DNA of 45,094 bases, from positions 1 through 45,094 of the forward strand of contig JAMOMJ010000158.1 of assembly GCA_027067135.1 (NCBI GenBank), read 5' to 3'. The first letter of the stretch is position 1. Each line of letters opens with the position of its first letter. Positions 705 through 6,188 of the stretch are shown piece after piece. Origin of the DNA: Cyclobacteriaceae bacterium (GTDB lineage Bacteria; Bacteroidota; Bacteroidia; Cytophagales; Cyclobacteriaceae). The notes beneath the pieces were generated by a model. That model was given only the letters and a program-made list of their open reading frames with translations. It did no database searches and had not been told where the DNA came from. The position numbers and the translations under genes were made by a program.

Positions 705-1913
705 TCACCTTACTAAAAAATCATAAGCAGGTATTACTTGGGCAACCATACCATTTTGCTCAAAACTATCTGTTTGATTTAAGGTAATTATAGTGCCAGT
801 TTTTAGTTTAAAATAGGCAAGTGCTTCAAATATGCCATTTAGTTCACGTTTCATATTATCTTGATTTAACGTATAGCAAACTTGAATGATTTTATGGATT
901 TTTTTATTTTCAAATACAATAAAATCACATTCACCTTTTTCTAAAAAATAGTATATTTCCTTATATGTTCTTCTTAAATGTAAATAAATAAGGTTTTCAA
1001 ACTTTCGTCCACTGTCTTCAGTAAAAGAGGCAGAATTTATATGAACTAACCCCGTATCTATCGCATAAACTTTTCTGGGGTTTACTAATTGTTTCTTTAG
1101 GGAGTAGCTAAATTTTGGCACATAAAAAAACAAGTACGAATACTCTAAATGAGAAAGGTATTCCATAACAGTGCTAGTGGCACCTACCTCAAAAATGGAT
1201 TTTAATTTATTGCCAGTAATTAACTTAGCGGTATTTGTTAAGAGGTATAGTGCCAGGCGTTGCAGCGTTTTAACATCACGCACGCCATACCTTATAGCTA
1301 TGTCTCTTATAATGATGTCGTCTAGCAGGTTGATTAAAATATCCTCTTCATTAGTTTTGATATACGCAGGAAATCCCCCTTCATTTAAATAGCGAGATAA
1401 GGATTTTTCTGAAAGCGTTAATTTTTTATAAGAGCAAAATTCTTGGTAAGAGAAGGGGAATAATTCTTTAGTAATATGCCTACCAGTAAGCTTTGTTCCT
1501 AATTCTTTACTTAGCAATGATGCATTTGAGCCAGTTACTACAACACGGAAACCCTCATCCAGTTTTTGACGAATATACCTTTCCCAACCCTCAATTATTT
1601 GTATTTCATCAAAAAACAACACCTTGGTTTTATCATCAGAAATAATTGAATCTAACCTTGTAAAATCAGCCACCTCAAATTCATATAAACGAGTATCTTC
1701 AAAATTTAGGTAGAGAGCGAATTTATATTTAGCATATAATAATTGAAAAAGCAATGTGCTTTTGCCACATCTTCTAACCCCAGATAGTATAAGTGCATGC
1801 GAGGCTAAAGTTGGAATAACTTTTAAAAGATCTCTTTTTAAACCAGTATCTTTTTGGTCTAAGTTAGCTTTTTGCAGAGCTATTACCTGTTTAAGGCTTG
1901 ATTTTAGTATCAT
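705..1913 (-). CDS. AAA-family ATPase with C-terminal DUF4143 domain
   Basis: The 402-residue protein has an N-terminal AAA_14-type ATPase: Walker A GVRRCGKST at about 45-53, Walker B VLFFDEIQ at about 98-105 and a sensor-like VVVTGSN near 130. A winged-helix-like middle follows, then a C-terminal DUF4143 region with the family pattern GRKFEN, then ECDFIVFE and IQVCY, resembling the core of a PD-(D/E)xK nuclease fold. Cellular function is unsettled for this family; many Bacteroidota and archaea carry several copies. I chose the ATG at 1913 because an upstream TTG start (1940) would lie inside the promoter. It is a single-gene unit beside repeat-rich DNA, which fits an accessory gene. The ATPase assignment is firm, the biological role unknown. 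Confidence 0.85.
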   Translation of the reverse strand: MILKSSLKQVIALQKANLDQKDTGLKRDLLKVIPTLASHALILSGVRRCGKSTLLFQLLYAKYKFALYLNFEDTRLYEFEVADFTRLDSIISDDKTKVLFFDEIQIIEGWERYIRQKLDEGFRVVVTGSNASLLSKELGTKLTGRHITKELFPFSYQEFCSYKKLTLSEKSLSRYLNEGGFPAYIKTNEEDILINLLDDIIIRDIAIRYGVRDVKTLQRLALYLLTNTAKLITGNKLKSIFEVGATSTVMEYLSHLEYSYLFFYVPKFSYSLKKQLVNPRKVYAIDTGLVHINSASFTEDSGRKFENLIYLHLRRTYKEIYYFLEKGECDFIVFENKKIHKIIQVCYTLNQDNMKRELNGIFEALAYFKLKTGTIITLNQTDSFEQNGMVAQVIPAYDFLVR

Positions 1914-1961
1914 ACAAAAGTGTTTGATGCAAAAATACAAAAGTGTTTGATGTAATCAAAC
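1914..1961. repeat. Direct and inverted repeats overlapping the ATPase promoter
   Basis: ACAAAAGTGTTTGATG occurs at 1914-1929 and again from 1938 to 1952 (first base offset by the junction), a 24-base period that brackets the -7 box. GTTTGAT (1945-1951) is also inverted as ATCAAAC (1955-1961) around a 3-base loop, covering the -33 TTG. The motif GTTTGAT therefore occurs three times within 41 bases. This is the geometry of an operator, possibly for autoregulation; the binding protein is unknown. Confidence 0.6.
1930..1959 (-). promoter_or_regulatory. Bacteroidota-type promoter of the AAA ATPase gene
   Basis: Reading the minus strand, TTG (1959-1957) is followed after 19 bases by TATTTTTG (1937-1930), an exact match to the TTG-N19-TAnnTTTG pattern of Bacteroidota housekeeping promoters. 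Transcription would start near 1923, about 10 bases before the ATG at 1913, giving a very short leader. The -7 box sits between two copies of a 15-16-base direct repeat. Confidence 0.7.
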
Positions 1962-2058
1962 AAAAAAGTAATTTGGGTTATAGGGCATCTCTACTAATTT
2001 GCAATGTTTTGAACATAAATTTTGATTTAATAAATCTTTATTGCTCCTTTGAAGCTCG

Positions 2059-2133
2059 ATGATGAAAACGACTACATATTTTAACTATTTCTTTTTTTAC
2101 TTCAGGAGCAAAGCACCGGGGTTAGAGAAATAG
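2059..2133 (+). CDS. Phe/Tyr-rich leader peptide of the aromatic operon
   Basis: A 24-codon ORF begins with two ATG codons (2059, 2062) and ends at TAG 2131-2133. After Met-Met-Lys-Thr-Thr-Thr its next nine residues are YFNYFFFYF: five Phe and three Tyr in nine codons. It precedes pheA, whose operon makes Phe and Tyr, and is followed by an intrinsic terminator. This is the classical composition of an attenuation leader peptide, where ribosome stalling on charged-tRNA shortage decides whether the terminator forms. The peptide itself probably has no function after synthesis. The coding claim rests on composition and context; there is no visible ribosome binding site, as is usual in this phylum. 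Confidence 0.85.
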   Translation: MMKTTTYFNYFFFYFRSKAPGLEK

Positions 2134-2160
2134 TATATGTAAAAAACTATATAAATCTAA

Positions 2161-2189
2161 AAGCCCCGATGTATATCGGGGCTTTTTTT
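2161..2189 (+). terminator. Intrinsic terminator inside the pheA leader
   Basis: AAGCCCCGAT (2161-2170), a GTAT loop and ATCGGGGCTT (2175-2184) form a perfect 10-base-pair stem followed by a run of seven T (2183-2189). It ends only 10 bases before the pheA ATG, so it is placed to regulate pheA rather than to end an upstream gene, since the gene upstream is on the other strand. Confidence 0.9.
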
Positions 2190-2199
2190 ATGCGTAAAA

Positions 2200-3045
2200 A
2201 TGAACGAAAATAAATTAAAAATAGGAATACAAGGTATAAAAGCAGCATTTCATGATGTGGCAGCACGCCAGTATTTCGGTAATGATAAAATTGAACTAGC
2301 TGAATTTAGAGATTTTAGGAGCATGTCTCAGGCAGTGGAAGCAGGCAAAGTGGATTTTGCTATGATGGCCATTGAAAACACGTTGGCTGGTAGCCTATTG
2401 CCAAATTATGGCTTGCTAGAACAATATGGACTAAATATTATTGGAGAAGAATATTTGCGAATTCAAATGCAATTAATGGTATTACCCGGAGAAACCTTAA
2501 ATACTGTAGAGCAAGTAATATCTCACCCCATAGCATTAAGTCAGTGTGGCCAATTTTTGGATGGATACCCGGATTGGAAAATAACGGAAGCAGATGATAC
2601 AGCAAGTAGTGCTCGGCTTATCTCCAAGAAAAAACTAAAAGGTATTGCGGCTATTGCGAGTAGTTTGGCAGCTAAAACCTATGGGTTAAAGGTTATTGCT
2701 CCATCTATCGAAACGAATAAGAAAAACTATACACGTTTTTTAGCTATTTCTAAGCAATCAAACAGTTCGTATAACATAAATAAGGCTTCTCTACGATTAA
2801 TATTAAGCCATAAACCTGCGGCATTAGCTAAAGCACTGGAAGTAATTGGGAACAAAGGGCTCAATTTATCAAAGATTCAATCGGTGCCAATTATAGGTCA
2901 GCCCTACGAGTATGCCATACATTTAGATTTACTTTTTGATGAATTTGAAAACTTCGCTCTTGCAATGAAAAAGTTAAAACCATTGACTTTGAGTTTAAAA
3001 ATATTAGGCACTTACCTTCAAGGTAACAAACCCATTTTAAGATGA
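2200..3045 (+). CDS. pheA: Prephenate dehydratase
   Basis: PheA converts prephenate to phenylpyruvate, the committed step to phenylalanine, in the cytosol. The 281-residue protein is a monofunctional dehydratase: the catalytic domain occupies about 5-185 with the TRF motif at 178-180, followed by a C-terminal ACT domain (about 195-275) for feedback by Phe. The usual ESRP signature of the ACT domain reads QSVP here (about 227-230), so feedback sensitivity may differ from the enterobacterial enzyme. It has no chorismate mutase domain; that activity is supplied by the fusion protein at the end of the operon. It is the first structural gene after the Phe/Tyr attenuator and overlaps the next gene by 4 bases (ATGA). 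Confidence 0.95.
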   Translation: MNENKLKIGIQGIKAAFHDVAARQYFGNDKIELAEFRDFRSMSQAVEAGKVDFAMMAIENTLAGSLLPNYGLLEQYGLNIIGEEYLRIQMQLMVLPGETLNTVEQVISHPIALSQCGQFLDGYPDWKITEADDTASSARLISKKKLKGIAAIASSLAAKTYGLKVIAPSIETNKKNYTRFLAISKQSNSSYNINKASLRLILSHKPAALAKALEVIGNKGLNLSKIQSVPIIGQPYEYAIHLDLLFDEFENFALAMKKLKPLTLSLKILGTYLQGNKPILR

Positions 3046-4223
3046 TAGCCATAGCAGATAGATTTAAATCGGTGAAGGAGTATTACTTCTCAGTTAAACT
3101 GCAAGAGATTGCAAACATGAGATCAGAGGGAAAAAATGTACTTAATTTAGGAATAGGTTCTCCTGATTTACCACCTGATAGAGCAACTATAGATGCCTTA
3201 ATAAACTCAGCTAATGAATCTGGTAATCATGCGTATCAGCCATACCGGTCGAGCATTGATTTAAGAGAAGCCATGAGTGAGTTTTACAAAAACACCTATA
3301 ACGTTGAGCTTAATTCTGAATCTGAAGTGTTGCCATTACTGGGCTCTAAAGAAGGTATTATGTACATTTCATTGGCATTTCTAAACCCTGGAGATGAGGT
3401 GTTGATTCCGAACCCTGGCTACCCTGCGTATGGTGCCATAACGAACTTAGTGGGAGCAACAGCTCATACTTTTGATCTAATAGAAGCCGATAATTGGAGT
3501 CCTGATTTTGATTCTCTTGAACAAAAAGATTTGAGTAAGGTGAAAATTATGTGGGTGAATTACCCTAATATGCCCACAGGCGCAAATTCAACCAAGAAGC
3601 TTTTTAGAAAACTAATCGAGTTCGGTAAAAAGCATAATATTTTAATTATAAATGACAACCCCTATAGCTTGGTGCTAAATGATTCTCCACAATCAATTTT
3701 AGAAGATGACAAGGAAAAAGAGCATGTATTGGAGCTTAACTCGTTGAGCAAAAGTTTTAATATGGCAGGATGGAGAGTAGGGATGGTTGCTGGCCATGAG
3801 CAATATATTAATGCCATCGTTCAGGCAAAAAGCAATGTAGATTCAGGCATGTTTTTACCTGTACAAAAAGCTGCTGCCAAAGCATTATCTCTGCCTCAAG
3901 AATGGCATAATGAACGAAATGAGGTGTATGCAAATAGAAGAACTATCGCATTAGAATTATTGACACACCTAAACTGTGAAGTAAAACCAAACCAGGTTGG
4001 CATGTTTTTATGGGCAAAATTGCCAACTCATGTTGAATCTGTGCGTGATTTTATAGATGATATATTACATAATACCCACGTGTTTTTAACACCTGGCGAA
4101 ATATTTGGAACAAATGGAAATCGATTCATTCGTTTATCACTATGCTCCACCGAGCAAGATTTTGAAATAGCTATACAAAGAATTCTAACATGGAAAACAA
4201 AGGAGTTGTCGTTGGTATCATAG
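3042..4223 (+). CDS. Class I/II PLP-dependent aminotransferase
   Basis: This 393-residue fold-type I aminotransferase has the PLP-binding lysine K237 in LNSLSKSFNMAGWR, the substrate-binding NPGYPAYG segment near 124-131 and a C-terminal arginine-containing RFIRLS region. Placed between pheA and tyrA, it most likely transaminates phenylpyruvate and 4-hydroxyphenylpyruvate (or prephenate) with glutamate or aspartate as donor. The same position is occupied by an aminotransferase in other Bacteroidota aromatic operons. Sequence alone does not separate it from LL-diaminopimelate or aspartate aminotransferases, so substrate is inferred from context. Its start overlaps the pheA stop (ATGA), suggesting translational coupling. 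Confidence 0.88.
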   Translation: MIAIADRFKSVKEYYFSVKLQEIANMRSEGKNVLNLGIGSPDLPPDRATIDALINSANESGNHAYQPYRSSIDLREAMSEFYKNTYNVELNSESEVLPLLGSKEGIMYISLAFLNPGDEVLIPNPGYPAYGAITNLVGATAHTFDLIEADNWSPDFDSLEQKDLSKVKIMWVNYPNMPTGANSTKKLFRKLIEFGKKHNILIINDNPYSLVLNDSPQSILEDDKEKEHVLELNSLSKSFNMAGWRVGMVAGHEQYINAIVQAKSNVDSGMFLPVQKAAAKALSLPQEWHNERNEVYANRRTIALELLTHLNCEVKPNQVGMFLWAKLPTHVESVRDFIDDILHNTHVFLTPGEIFGTNGNRFIRLSLCSTEQDFEIAIQRILTWKTKELSLVS

Positions 4224-5062
4224 GCTTAGGCCTCATCGGAGGTTCAACTGCTTTACGATTACGAAAAGTTGGCTTTGCAAATAGAATTGTGGGGGCAGAC
4301 CATTCGAATAAAAACATAGCAAAATCAATTGAGCTTAATATAGTTGATGAAGGGCTGGAGTTAAATGAGCTAGCTCACCAAGCTGATGTAATTATTGTTG
4401 CTATTCCAGTAGATGCTTCTAAAAAACTTATTATTGAACTGCTAAATACAGCTCGTAAAAATCAAATAATTATTGATTTTGGTTCCACCAAATCGAGTAT
4501 TGCACAAGCAGTTAGAAACCATAAAAACAGAAGTAATTATGTGGCTTGCCACCCTATAGCAGGAACAGAAAATAGTGGGCCAACCGCTGCTTTTGATTCT
4601 TTATTTAATGAGAAAGTAAATATTATTTGTGATAAAGAATTGTCTTCTAATAACGCTTTAGATACGGTTTTAGAGATAACATCTCAACTAGGTATGCGCC
4701 CTAAGTTTATGAATAGCAAAGAGCACGACCGGCATATTGCTTATGTGTCGCACCTATCTCATATTAGCTCGTTTACCTTAGGCCAAACCGTGTTAGAGGT
4801 GGAACCTAACGAAGAAAATATTTTTGATATGGCAGGGAGTGGATTTGAAAGTACCGTGCGTTTAGCAAAAAGCTCTCCATCTATGTGGGCACCTATTTTT
4901 ACAGAAAATTCGGAGAATATCATCGAAGTTTTATCAGCCTATATTGCCAATCTTGAAAAATATAAATTAATGATAGCCCAAGGAAATGAAGAAGCTTTGA
5001 GAAAAGCAATGAAACAAACAAATAGAATTAGAACGGTTCTTGAAAAAGAACCATTATCATAA
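4190..5062 (+). CDS. tyrA: Prephenate dehydrogenase
   Basis: TyrA oxidatively decarboxylates prephenate to 4-hydroxyphenylpyruvate for tyrosine synthesis, using NAD(P). The 290-residue protein opens with a Rossmann nucleotide-binding loop, GIIGLGLIGGS (9-19), followed by the characteristic HPIAGTENSGP segment and the all-helical dimerisation domain (HLSHISSF onward). It has no fused chorismate mutase or ACT domain. The ATG at 4190 lies 34 bases inside the aminotransferase gene; a later start would remove the dinucleotide-binding loop, so this overlap is probably real. The next gene follows after a 34-base gap. Confidence 0.94.
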   Translation: MENKGVVVGIIGLGLIGGSTALRLRKVGFANRIVGADHSNKNIAKSIELNIVDEGLELNELAHQADVIIVAIPVDASKKLIIELLNTARKNQIIIDFGSTKSSIAQAVRNHKNRSNYVACHPIAGTENSGPTAAFDSLFNEKVNIICDKELSSNNALDTVLEITSQLGMRPKFMNSKEHDRHIAYVSHLSHISSFTLGQTVLEVEPNEENIFDMAGSGFESTVRLAKSSPSMWAPIFTENSENIIEVLSAYIANLEKYKLMIAQGNEEALRKAMKQTNRIRTVLEKEPLS

Positions 5063-5096: not shown

Positions 5097-6188
5097 ATGA
5101 ATATAGAATTGAACATTGAACCAATGGAGCAATGGTTTCCGAAAACCAAAGACCTTCCATTATTGATTGCTGGCCCTTGTAGTGCAGAATCAGAAGAACA
5201 GGTGCTGGAAACAGCTAAGTTAATTGAGAAAGACCACCGAGCAATGGTATATCGAGCTGGGCTTTGGAAACCCAGAACAAGGCCAGGAACCTTTGAAGGC
5301 GTAGGAGCTAAAGGTTTGCCTTGGTTAAAAAAGGTAAAAGAACAAACTCGTTTGCTAGTAGCTACTGAAGTGGCAAAAGCAGAGCATGTGCAGCAAGCGA
5401 TTGATGCAGGAGTTGATATTTTATGGATAGGTGCCCGAACTACTGTAAACCCATTCTCAGTACAAGAATTAGCCGATGCCTTAAAAGGTCATGATATTCC
5501 AGTGCTAGTTAAAAACCCTATCAACCCAGATTTACAATTATGGATTGGTGCGCTGGAGCGTATTAATCAAGCTGGTATTACCAAGCTTGGAGCCATTCAT
5601 CGAGGGTTTTCACCCAATAGTGAATCTAAATACCGCAACGACCCAAAATGGAAATTGGCGATTGAGCTGAAGAGAATTTTGCCAGATATGCCCATTGTGT
5701 GCGACCCCAGTCATATTGGTGGCTCACGAGAGCTTATTGAACCAGTTGCGCAAAAGGCTTTTGATTTGCAAATGGAAGGCTTAATGATTGAAACTCATAT
5801 TAATCCTGAGGTGGCTTTAAGCGATGCGAAGCAGCAAGTAACACCTGCTAGATTAAAGACCATTTTGGATGCTATTATTCTTCGTAGAGCCGATTCTGCC
5901 AATAATGAATTTGTTGAATCACTTAAAGAGCTTAGAGGAAAAATTGACAATGTAGATGATGAGTTAATTACCCTTTTAGGAAAACGTATGGCTTTGGTAG
6001 ATCAAATTGGTGAATCTAAAAAAGAGAATAACGTTACAATTCTTCAAGTAGGCAGGTACGAAAATATTCTTAATGACAGGGTTGCAAAAGGTGAAGACGA
6101 AAACCTTAGTGCTGATTTTGTAAAAGATATTTTTGAGTTTATCCACCAAAACTCGATTAAGCGTCAGGAAAAAATAATGAATGACTAG
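5097..6188 (+). CDS. Bifunctional DAHP synthase / chorismate mutase
   Basis: The 363-residue fusion catalyses the first step of the shikimate pathway (PEP plus erythrose 4-phosphate to DAHP) and the chorismate-to-prephenate step. The N-terminal domain (about 20-265) is a type I-beta DAHP synthase with IAGPCSAES (24-32), RAGLWKPRT (53-61), GAIHRGF and VCDPSHIGG. The C-terminal domain (about 270-360) is an AroQ-type chorismate mutase (LRGKIDNVDDELI, then LLGKRMALVDQIGESK). This order, mutase at the C-terminus, is the Bacteroidota arrangement known from Prevotella and Porphyromonas, where prephenate allosterically inhibits the synthase. With pheA and tyrA it lets one operon take chorismate to both aromatic amino acids. 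Confidence 0.95.
   Translation: MNIELNIEPMEQWFPKTKDLPLLIAGPCSAESEEQVLETAKLIEKDHRAMVYRAGLWKPRTRPGTFEGVGAKGLPWLKKVKEQTRLLVATEVAKAEHVQQAIDAGVDILWIGARTTVNPFSVQELADALKGHDIPVLVKNPINPDLQLWIGALERINQAGITKLGAIHRGFSPNSESKYRNDPKWKLAIELKRILPDMPIVCDPSHIGGSRELIEPVAQKAFDLQMEGLMIETHINPEVALSDAKQQVTPARLKTILDAIILRRADSANNEFVESLKELRGKIDNVDDELITLLGKRMALVDQIGESKKENNVTILQVGRYENILNDRVAKGEDENLSADFVKDIFEFIHQNSIKRQEKIMND

Follow-up and report, generated by a model that had tools for sequence, protein, structure and literature searches.

The locus raises the question of how an aromatic amino-acid operon beginning with pheA is controlled, and whether a short ORF and a hairpin just upstream of it work together as a transcription attenuator. 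The window, that is the whole stretch of 45 094 nucleotides that was analysed, is contig G000:C158 of a fragmented source genome (3.47 Mb in 472 contigs), the closest named relatives of which are Cyclobacteriaceae MAGs (PheA identity 83% for L002 and 76% for L003). An initial annotation had read the region as a Phe/Tyr leader-peptide attenuator, and this proved by far the best reading, supported by conservation and folding. On the basis of its parts, their conservation and the computed energetics, the region is very probably a trp/phe-type attenuator that is mediated by the ribosome and senses both Phe-tRNA and Tyr-tRNA. The order on the + strand is leader ORF, terminator, pheA, aminotransferase, tyrA and DAHP synthase/chorismate mutase, with the following genes.

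2200–3045, + strand: pheA, prephenate dehydratase, 281 aa (PF00800, E 2.3e-53)
3042–4223, + strand: class I/II aminotransferase (PF00155)
4190–5062, + strand: tyrA, prephenate dehydrogenase (PF02153, PF20463; NF006307 above cut-off)
5097–6188, + strand: DAHP synthase fused to chorismate mutase (PF00793 and PF01817)

An AAA_14/DUF4143 ATPase gene (705–1940, minus strand) lies directly upstream of the operon and is divergent from it. The leader region contains the following features.

2059–2133, + strand: leader peptide ORF of 24 codons plus stop, MMKTTTYFNYFFFYFRSKAPGLEK (sequence; close counterparts in L002, L003, L004 and L005)
2077–2103, + strand: regulatory codons YFNYFFFYF, five Phe and three Tyr in nine codons (sequence)
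2159–2189, + strand: intrinsic terminator with stem 2159–2170/2175–2186, a loop of 4 and T run 2183–2189 (sequence, own scan, conservation)

The ORF starts with ATG at 2059, contains a second in-frame ATG at 2062 and ends with TAG at 2131–2133; the initial annotation had already given its extent, length and YFNYFFFYF run correctly. A short ORF rich in codons for the operon products thus precedes the first gene, pheA, as expected of an attenuator. The second expected part, a putative intrinsic terminator between the leader ORF and pheA, was identified from sequence and conservation. A terminator with a T run had been proposed at 2161–2184, and the hairpin is indeed present, with 12 pairs and seven T on the + strand. 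It was listed on the minus strand only by the standard terminator scan, because the A–U end pairs use part of the T run, and was detected on the + strand by our own scan. As the gene at 705–1940 points away from it, the terminator belongs to no known upstream gene. Region 2030–2199 folds better than all of 200 dinucleotide shuffles (z = −3.67), and over six aligned sequences 98.6% of the terminator cells are paired, and in two of the pairs both partners have changed.

Leaders in related genomes

Leaders were defined as ORFs of 8–60 codons upstream of a dehydratase match, with at least six Phe/Tyr codons in some ten and an end lying −15 to 110 nt before an intrinsic terminator. Among the 246 loci for which 150 nt or more of upstream sequence was available, 86 had such a leader within 400 nt, and 87 did if at least five aromatic codons were required. 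Using the full available upstream sequence, a leader was found at 86 of 249 loci, compared with 1 of 249 reverse complements and 0 of 169 downstream stretches. Counted by sample at loci with at least 200 nt upstream, leaders preceded 49 of the 78 named loci nearest the query (a biased sample, for which 80 of 142 relatives were used), 19 of 90 family loci and 20 of 39 class loci; these counts are not independent because the samples overlap, L002/L217, L004/L189 and L047/L177 carrying the same leader. A leader was found at none of the 41 phylum-sample loci examined (30 best-scoring and 11 hand-chosen, from 340 genomes with a match), of which 40 come from other classes and one (L248, G308) from the same class. 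Later statistics were calculated for 92 distinct leaders from 82 loci.

The upstream sequences of 14 loci were inspected among the 71 leaderless family loci (of 90 usable). At 25 of 74 leaderless loci pheA was taken not to be the first gene because another open frame ends within 90 nt. The detector misses some leaders; L022 has a clear Phe/Tyr leader by eye and was scored via another ORF. At L142, L152 and L155, where the Phe/Tyr leader is missing, pheA looks by eye to be fused to an N-terminal chorismate mutase. Tandem Phe/Tyr leaders, each with a terminator, were observed before pheA at ten loci (L013, L015, L020, L021, L027, L048, L063, L073, L137 and L224), and from their sequences these pairs would be tandem attenuators in series. 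The distant member of an eleventh tandem match, L049, looks spurious.

In an AT-rich genome an ordinary terminator might stand next to a T-rich stretch that reads as Phe/Tyr codons by chance. TTT is the commonest core codon, the arrangement is absent from the phylum-sample loci described above and the standard scan gave no surplus of terminator-like sites in the region (two, against a shuffle mean of 3.7), all of which would suit such an origin. However, the 92 cores use TTC (105) and TAC (123) alongside TTT (291) and TAT (182), the upstream gene is divergent, and the ORF, its spacing and the pairing are preserved in relatives; moreover, five aromatic codons of ten together with a terminator were produced by none of 1230 dinucleotide shuffles (five per locus). 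A chance arrangement was therefore judged to be extremely improbable.

The cores of the 92 leaders contain 396 Phe and 305 Tyr codons, and both amino acids are encoded in 91 of the 92, so that the combination is a property of the leader set and not of the window alone. These codons argue that Phe and Tyr are probably both sensed, as the initial annotation had claimed, and would explain repression of the operon only when both amino acids are plentiful.

A wider specificity, with the leader sensing aromatic amino acids generally and Trp among them, is unlikely. It would agree with the presence in the operon of DAHP synthase, which opens the common pathway, and with a Trp codon inside or beside the core in 32 of the 92 leaders, FW or YW ending the core in L003, L004 and L005. 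The number of Trp-codon events is nevertheless smaller than the count, because a single related group (Parapedobacter, Olivibacter and Albibacterium) contributes about nine of the leaders with Trp (AYW). The window leader contains no Trp codon, and trpE has Trp-rich leaders of its own.

The latter were found in a survey of other operons that covered the 30 best-scoring family loci per gene, two his and two trp loci being dropped as too short. An ORF with at least two Trp codons in ten and a terminator preceded trpE at 27 of 28 usable family loci (shuffles 0/280), an ORF with at least three His codons and a terminator preceded hisG at 10 of 28 loci (shuffles 2/280), and one with at least six Ile/Leu/Val codons and a terminator preceded ilvD at 15 of 30 (shuffles 2/300). 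In the his matches L304, L310 and L314 the hairpin overlaps the ORF end; these may be false positives or differently built. The source genome itself carries a His leader, MQLNKRLLYFAFIMNNTKSIQLHHHHHTWPQANR, ending in MNNTKSIQLHHHHHTWPQANR (HHHHH), with a terminator before hisG (L390; G000:C39:3975-5775), a Trp leader, MNMTINTNWWWLSITQSE (NWWW), with a terminator before trpE (L391; G000:C277:1-1098) and, 1.1–1.3 kb upstream of ilvD, a tandem pair of Ile/Val-rich leaders that each have a terminator (L394; G000:C195:3196-5100). A sister genome has a similar HHHHH leader (L392), a trp leader with the run NWRW (L393) and likewise two leaders upstream of ilvD (L389).

Promoter and transcription start

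The predicted promoter of the window leader consists of the following elements.

2020–2025, + strand: predicted −33 element, TTTTGA, with TTTG at 2021–2024 (also upstream in L002, L003, L004, L005 and L008)
2044–2051, + strand: predicted −7 element, CTCCTTTG, a weak TAnnTTTG with 4/6 fixed letters
2056, + strand: predicted transcription start, placed from the position of the −7 box

A −33 TTTG element has been described (PMC7366714), and its spacing to the TTTG of the −7 box was counted by eye as 27 nt in both the window and L008. In the window the −7 box matches poorly (4/6) and the promoter scan itself reported another box there; TTTGAA at 2048–2053 is invariant in all six aligned sequences. 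An alternative promoter, AATCTTTA at 2033–2040 with TTTTG at 2007–2011, was rejected: its −33 part was not seen at that spacing in the relatives, and the 2021/2048 placing was therefore preferred (by eye, six sequences). As the −7 box is described as lying at −12 to −5 (PMC9723704), the start is predicted at about 2056, which would give a 5′ UTR of 3 nt to the ATG at 2059 or 6 nt to that at 2062.

For the promoter scan of the other leaders the start codon was assumed to be the last ATG before the core. An exact TAnnTTTG was present within 80 nt upstream of this ATG in 39 of 90 pheA leaders (43%; shuffles 4.9%), 17 of 27 trp leaders (shuffles 4.8%) and four of nine his leaders (shuffles 6.1%). 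The box with at most one mismatch was accompanied by a −33 element in 56/90 pheA, 19/27 trp and 5/9 his leaders, the corresponding values for shuffles being 10.6, 13.5 and 14.4%. The distance from box to ATG was 17–18 nt in 23 of the 56 pheA leaders, at least 19 nt in another 23 and 4–14 nt in 15 of the 19 trp leaders; with the box at −12 to −5, distances of 17–18 nt correspond to a 5′ UTR of 13–14 nt and those of 4–14 nt to 0–10 nt. The trp mRNA of the source genome may be leaderless, because in L391 the end of a TACATTTG box lies 4 nt upstream of the first ATG. Altogether, the ORF starts within about 14 nt of the predicted 5′ end in 53 of 80 leaders with a promoter-like pair. Published shares are about 3.7% for 5′ UTRs shorter than 10 nt in B. 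thetaiotaomicron (PMC7366714) and 5.5% for leaderless mRNAs in F. psychrophilum (PMC9723704).

Alternative pairings and folding with a ribosome

The predicted switch is built from the following segments.

2073–2094, + strand: strand 1, protector arm, with pairs 2073–2079/2135–2141 and 2084–2094/2124–2134 (minimum-free-energy fold; conservation)
2113–2141, + strand: strand 2, the ORF end with the stop codon and beyond, partner of either strand 1 or strand 3 (predicted folds, duplex energies)
2130–2150, + strand: small hairpin within the antiterminator, 2130–2134/2146–2150 (predicted fold with a stalled ribosome; 80% of cells paired, six sequences)
2156–2172, + strand: strand 3, antiterminator 3′ arm, overlapping the terminator 5′ arm (predicted fold; six-sequence comparison)

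Two competing pairings had been proposed in the initial annotation. That of 2117–2125 with 2157–2168 was reproduced closely by the predicted fold, in which about 2117–2126 pairs with 2156–2168. The other, 2041–2048 with 2104–2111, is complementary in the window as claimed but is not kept in relatives (62.5% of cells paired over six relatives, a value equalled or bettered by 129 of 500 shuffles), and its first arm is probably not transcribed because it overlaps the predicted promoter. This pairing was rejected as a part of the switch, and the folds point instead to 2073–2094/2124–2141 as the protector hairpin, in place of the 2041–2048 arm.

Over six sequences the two protector helices are 85.4 and 95.5% paired, with one pair changed on both sides. 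When the terminator and protector structure was compared with 500 column shuffles, its percentage of paired cells was reached by nine, its covariation score by 22 and its number of doubly changed pairs by 67. For the antiterminator, pairing in the six nearest sequences reaches 83.1% and no pair has changed on both sides, and 157 of 500 column shuffles were as good. With a result no better than shuffles, the close relatives alone would not prove the antiterminator, which is supported by the wider set.

In the 92 leaders the duplex of strand 2 with strand 3 has a mean energy of −17.8 kcal/mol, compared with −12.4 kcal/mol for swapped partners and −9.8 kcal/mol for shuffled tails. It is better than all 15 of its own shuffles in 68 leaders and than all 15 swaps in 37 (5.75 expected in each case), and the mean length of the longest perfect complement is 6.4 nt, compared with 4.9 nt for one random swapped partner. 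These complements are mostly G+C-rich, consisting of A+T alone in a few leaders, and the pairing core of strand 2 varies with the terminator (CGGGG, GGGAC, GAGGC, GGTGAGG, GTGAGACTC and GGGAGGCC among others), which as read from the sequences would be compensating change between loci, not tree-counted. Strand 1 and the sequence that follows the stop codon likewise show more pairing than expected, to a less striking degree, 32 of the 92 beating all own shuffles and 24 all swaps. The alignment of relatives' leaders that had been suggested as a check of the attenuator thus revealed conservation of both the Phe/Tyr codons and the antiterminator/terminator pairing.

The effect of a ribosome was computed by folding the RNA from the assumed start at 2056 to 2172, before the terminator 3′ arm, with a footprint of 30 nt made unpairable. 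For the window this gives an antiterminator probability of 0.03 in the absence of a ribosome; with the A site at 2059 it is 0.17, rising to 0.52–0.72 at 2062–2074 and 0.72–0.73 at 2077–2098, and it then falls from 0.63 at 2101 and 0.42 at 2104 to 0.00 from 2107 through the stop codon at 2131. The switch that the initial annotation had expected between ribosomes at 2098 and 2131 was obtained in this model. Antiterminator and terminator would accordingly be mutually exclusive in the computed folds, the former freed by a stall and blocked by a ribosome at the stop codon. The stall window ends with the aromatic codons and opens earlier than these, as stalls at 2062–2074 also free the antiterminator. 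In each of the five full-length states that were computed the complete terminator prevails (P 0.90–0.95), and the choice must therefore be kinetic.

Averaged over the 92 leaders, a ribosome at aromatic codons gives the antiterminator a probability of 0.70, and one at the stop codon a probability of 0.13. Switching (best value above 0.5, value at the stop below 0.2) was found in 69 of 92 leaders, compared with 64 of 276 with shuffled tails, a control in which every second aromatic codon was sampled. Without a ribosome the mean is 0.52, so that many leaders would read through if untranslated, and the window, at 0.03, differs from these; the value is below 0.3 in 25 of 92, and a protector arm is therefore not general.

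We infer that transcription starts at the predicted site, that it is actually terminated at the hairpin, that the operon responds to Phe and Tyr and that ribosome and polymerase are closely coupled. RNA polymerase would start at about 2056, and a ribosome would load immediately on the ATG at 2059 or 2062 without a Shine–Dalgarno sequence. If charged Phe- or Tyr-tRNA were scarce, the ribosome would stall in YFNYFFFYF and cover strand 1, strand 2 (2113–2126) would pair with strand 3 (2156–2172) before the terminator 3′ arm was made, and with the antiterminator formed transcription would continue through pheA–aminotransferase–tyrA–aroF. If both tRNAs were plentiful, the ribosome would reach the stop codon at 2131 and cover strand 2, and the terminator would form; it would form as well if no ribosome had loaded, strand 1 then holding strand 2. 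Since such a switch requires a ribosome close behind the polymerase, its conservation is indirect evidence of transcription–translation coupling in this phylum.

Comparison with known systems

At gathering score no Rfam model matched anywhere in the window, RF01692 (Bacteroid-trp) included. The best match of the region at a permissive threshold was to Phe_leader (RF01859; 38.1 bits against a cut-off of 55, E 4.2e-5), and Trp_leader (RF00513) scored 18.1 bits against a cut-off of 41. The Phe_leader score is not specific because 140 of 149 class genomes contain sub-threshold matches (E ≤ 1), none of them over the cut-off, with 21 candidates per genome scored; kinship with RF01859 was dropped for this reason. 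The Phe_leader matches listed for the source genome include C367 and C169 and not the window leader. In several cases such matches fall on both strands of one hairpin, and in the class genomes the model seems to score terminator-like hairpins.

Weak matches to MicC (33.9 bits against 90) and BTnc231 (24.7 against 80.4), together with the resemblance that a short terminated transcript can bear to a small RNA, would suit a small RNA gene or a protein- or metabolite-binding leader in which the ORF is incidental. These scores are, however, far under the curators' cut-offs, BTnc231 is at its cut-off in only one of 149 class genomes, with no match in the source genome at E ≤ 0.1, and what the 92 leaders conserve is the aromatic frame and the complementarity of strands 2 and 3, not one sequence. 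A role of this kind is very improbable. The idea that BTnc231 might be a misnamed pheA leader was rejected on the same count of class genomes.

For Flavobacterium psychrophilum, leader-peptide attenuation at amino-acid operons and a conserved 5′ element of pheA, without an Rfam hit, were reported in 2021 (PMC9723704). The phylum, the target gene, the proposed mechanism and the lack of an Rfam hit are shared with the window; that account, as far as its accessible part goes, differs in giving no pheA peptide, codon specificity or pairings, and it concerns another family, the Flavobacteriaceae. The remark in the initial annotation that few such attenuators have been described in Bacteroidota was thus fair, with the F. 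psychrophilum report to be set against it. The older Bacteroid-trp motif (RF01692) is likewise a cis-regulatory RNA of Bacteroidetes, tied by its name to the trp operon (PMC2864571); it was matched in none of 96 family genomes at E ≤ 0.001, in contrast to the control Bacteroides ihuae. A five-genome study (PMC6429828) mentions upstream ORFs of shikimate genes in which Phe and Tyr codons stand out; these resemble the present leader as Phe/Tyr ORFs at an aromatic pathway gene, and they may or may not be related. In the open-access literature no paper was found that sets out the pairings of such a Bacteroidota leader and its specificity for Phe and Tyr. The mechanism is a classic one of known kind; no description was found in that literature of the double specificity across the class or of the near-leaderless start.

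A broader reading can be offered tentatively, with somewhat less than even confidence: that in Bacteroidia leader-peptide attenuation is one of the main controls of amino-acid operons (Phe/Tyr, Trp, His and branched-chain), and that most leader ORFs lie within about 14 nt of the 5′ end, without a Shine–Dalgarno sequence, the first ribosome loading as the RNA emerges. If so, ribosome and polymerase would be closely coupled in the phylum, at least at leader sites, near-leaderless initiation would be a design of the sensor, and the tandem double Phe/Tyr attenuators (10 loci) would form a further layer.

Attenuators were reportedly predicted also in Bacteroidetes/Chlorobi by Vitreschak and others in a FEMS paper of 2004. 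Sensing of several amino acids of an operon by one leader is familiar from E. coli thrL (Thr/Ile) and ilvL (Ile/Val/Leu), which the window resembles in this respect while differing in the amino acids and the phylum. The Proteobacterial attenuators of pheA and trp comprise a leader ORF with product codons, the hairpins 1:2, 2:3 and 3:4, and a terminator before the first gene. Like these Phe and Trp leaders, the window has an ORF rich in product codons, alternative hairpins and an intrinsic terminator before pheA; it differs from them in having Phe and Tyr codons together, a Bacteroidota-type promoter and a predicted 5′ UTR of 3 nt, and it presents a well-defined predicted attenuator from a phylum whose primary sigma factor is unusual, which has no Shine–Dalgarno sequence and in which the control of amino-acid synthesis has been little studied.
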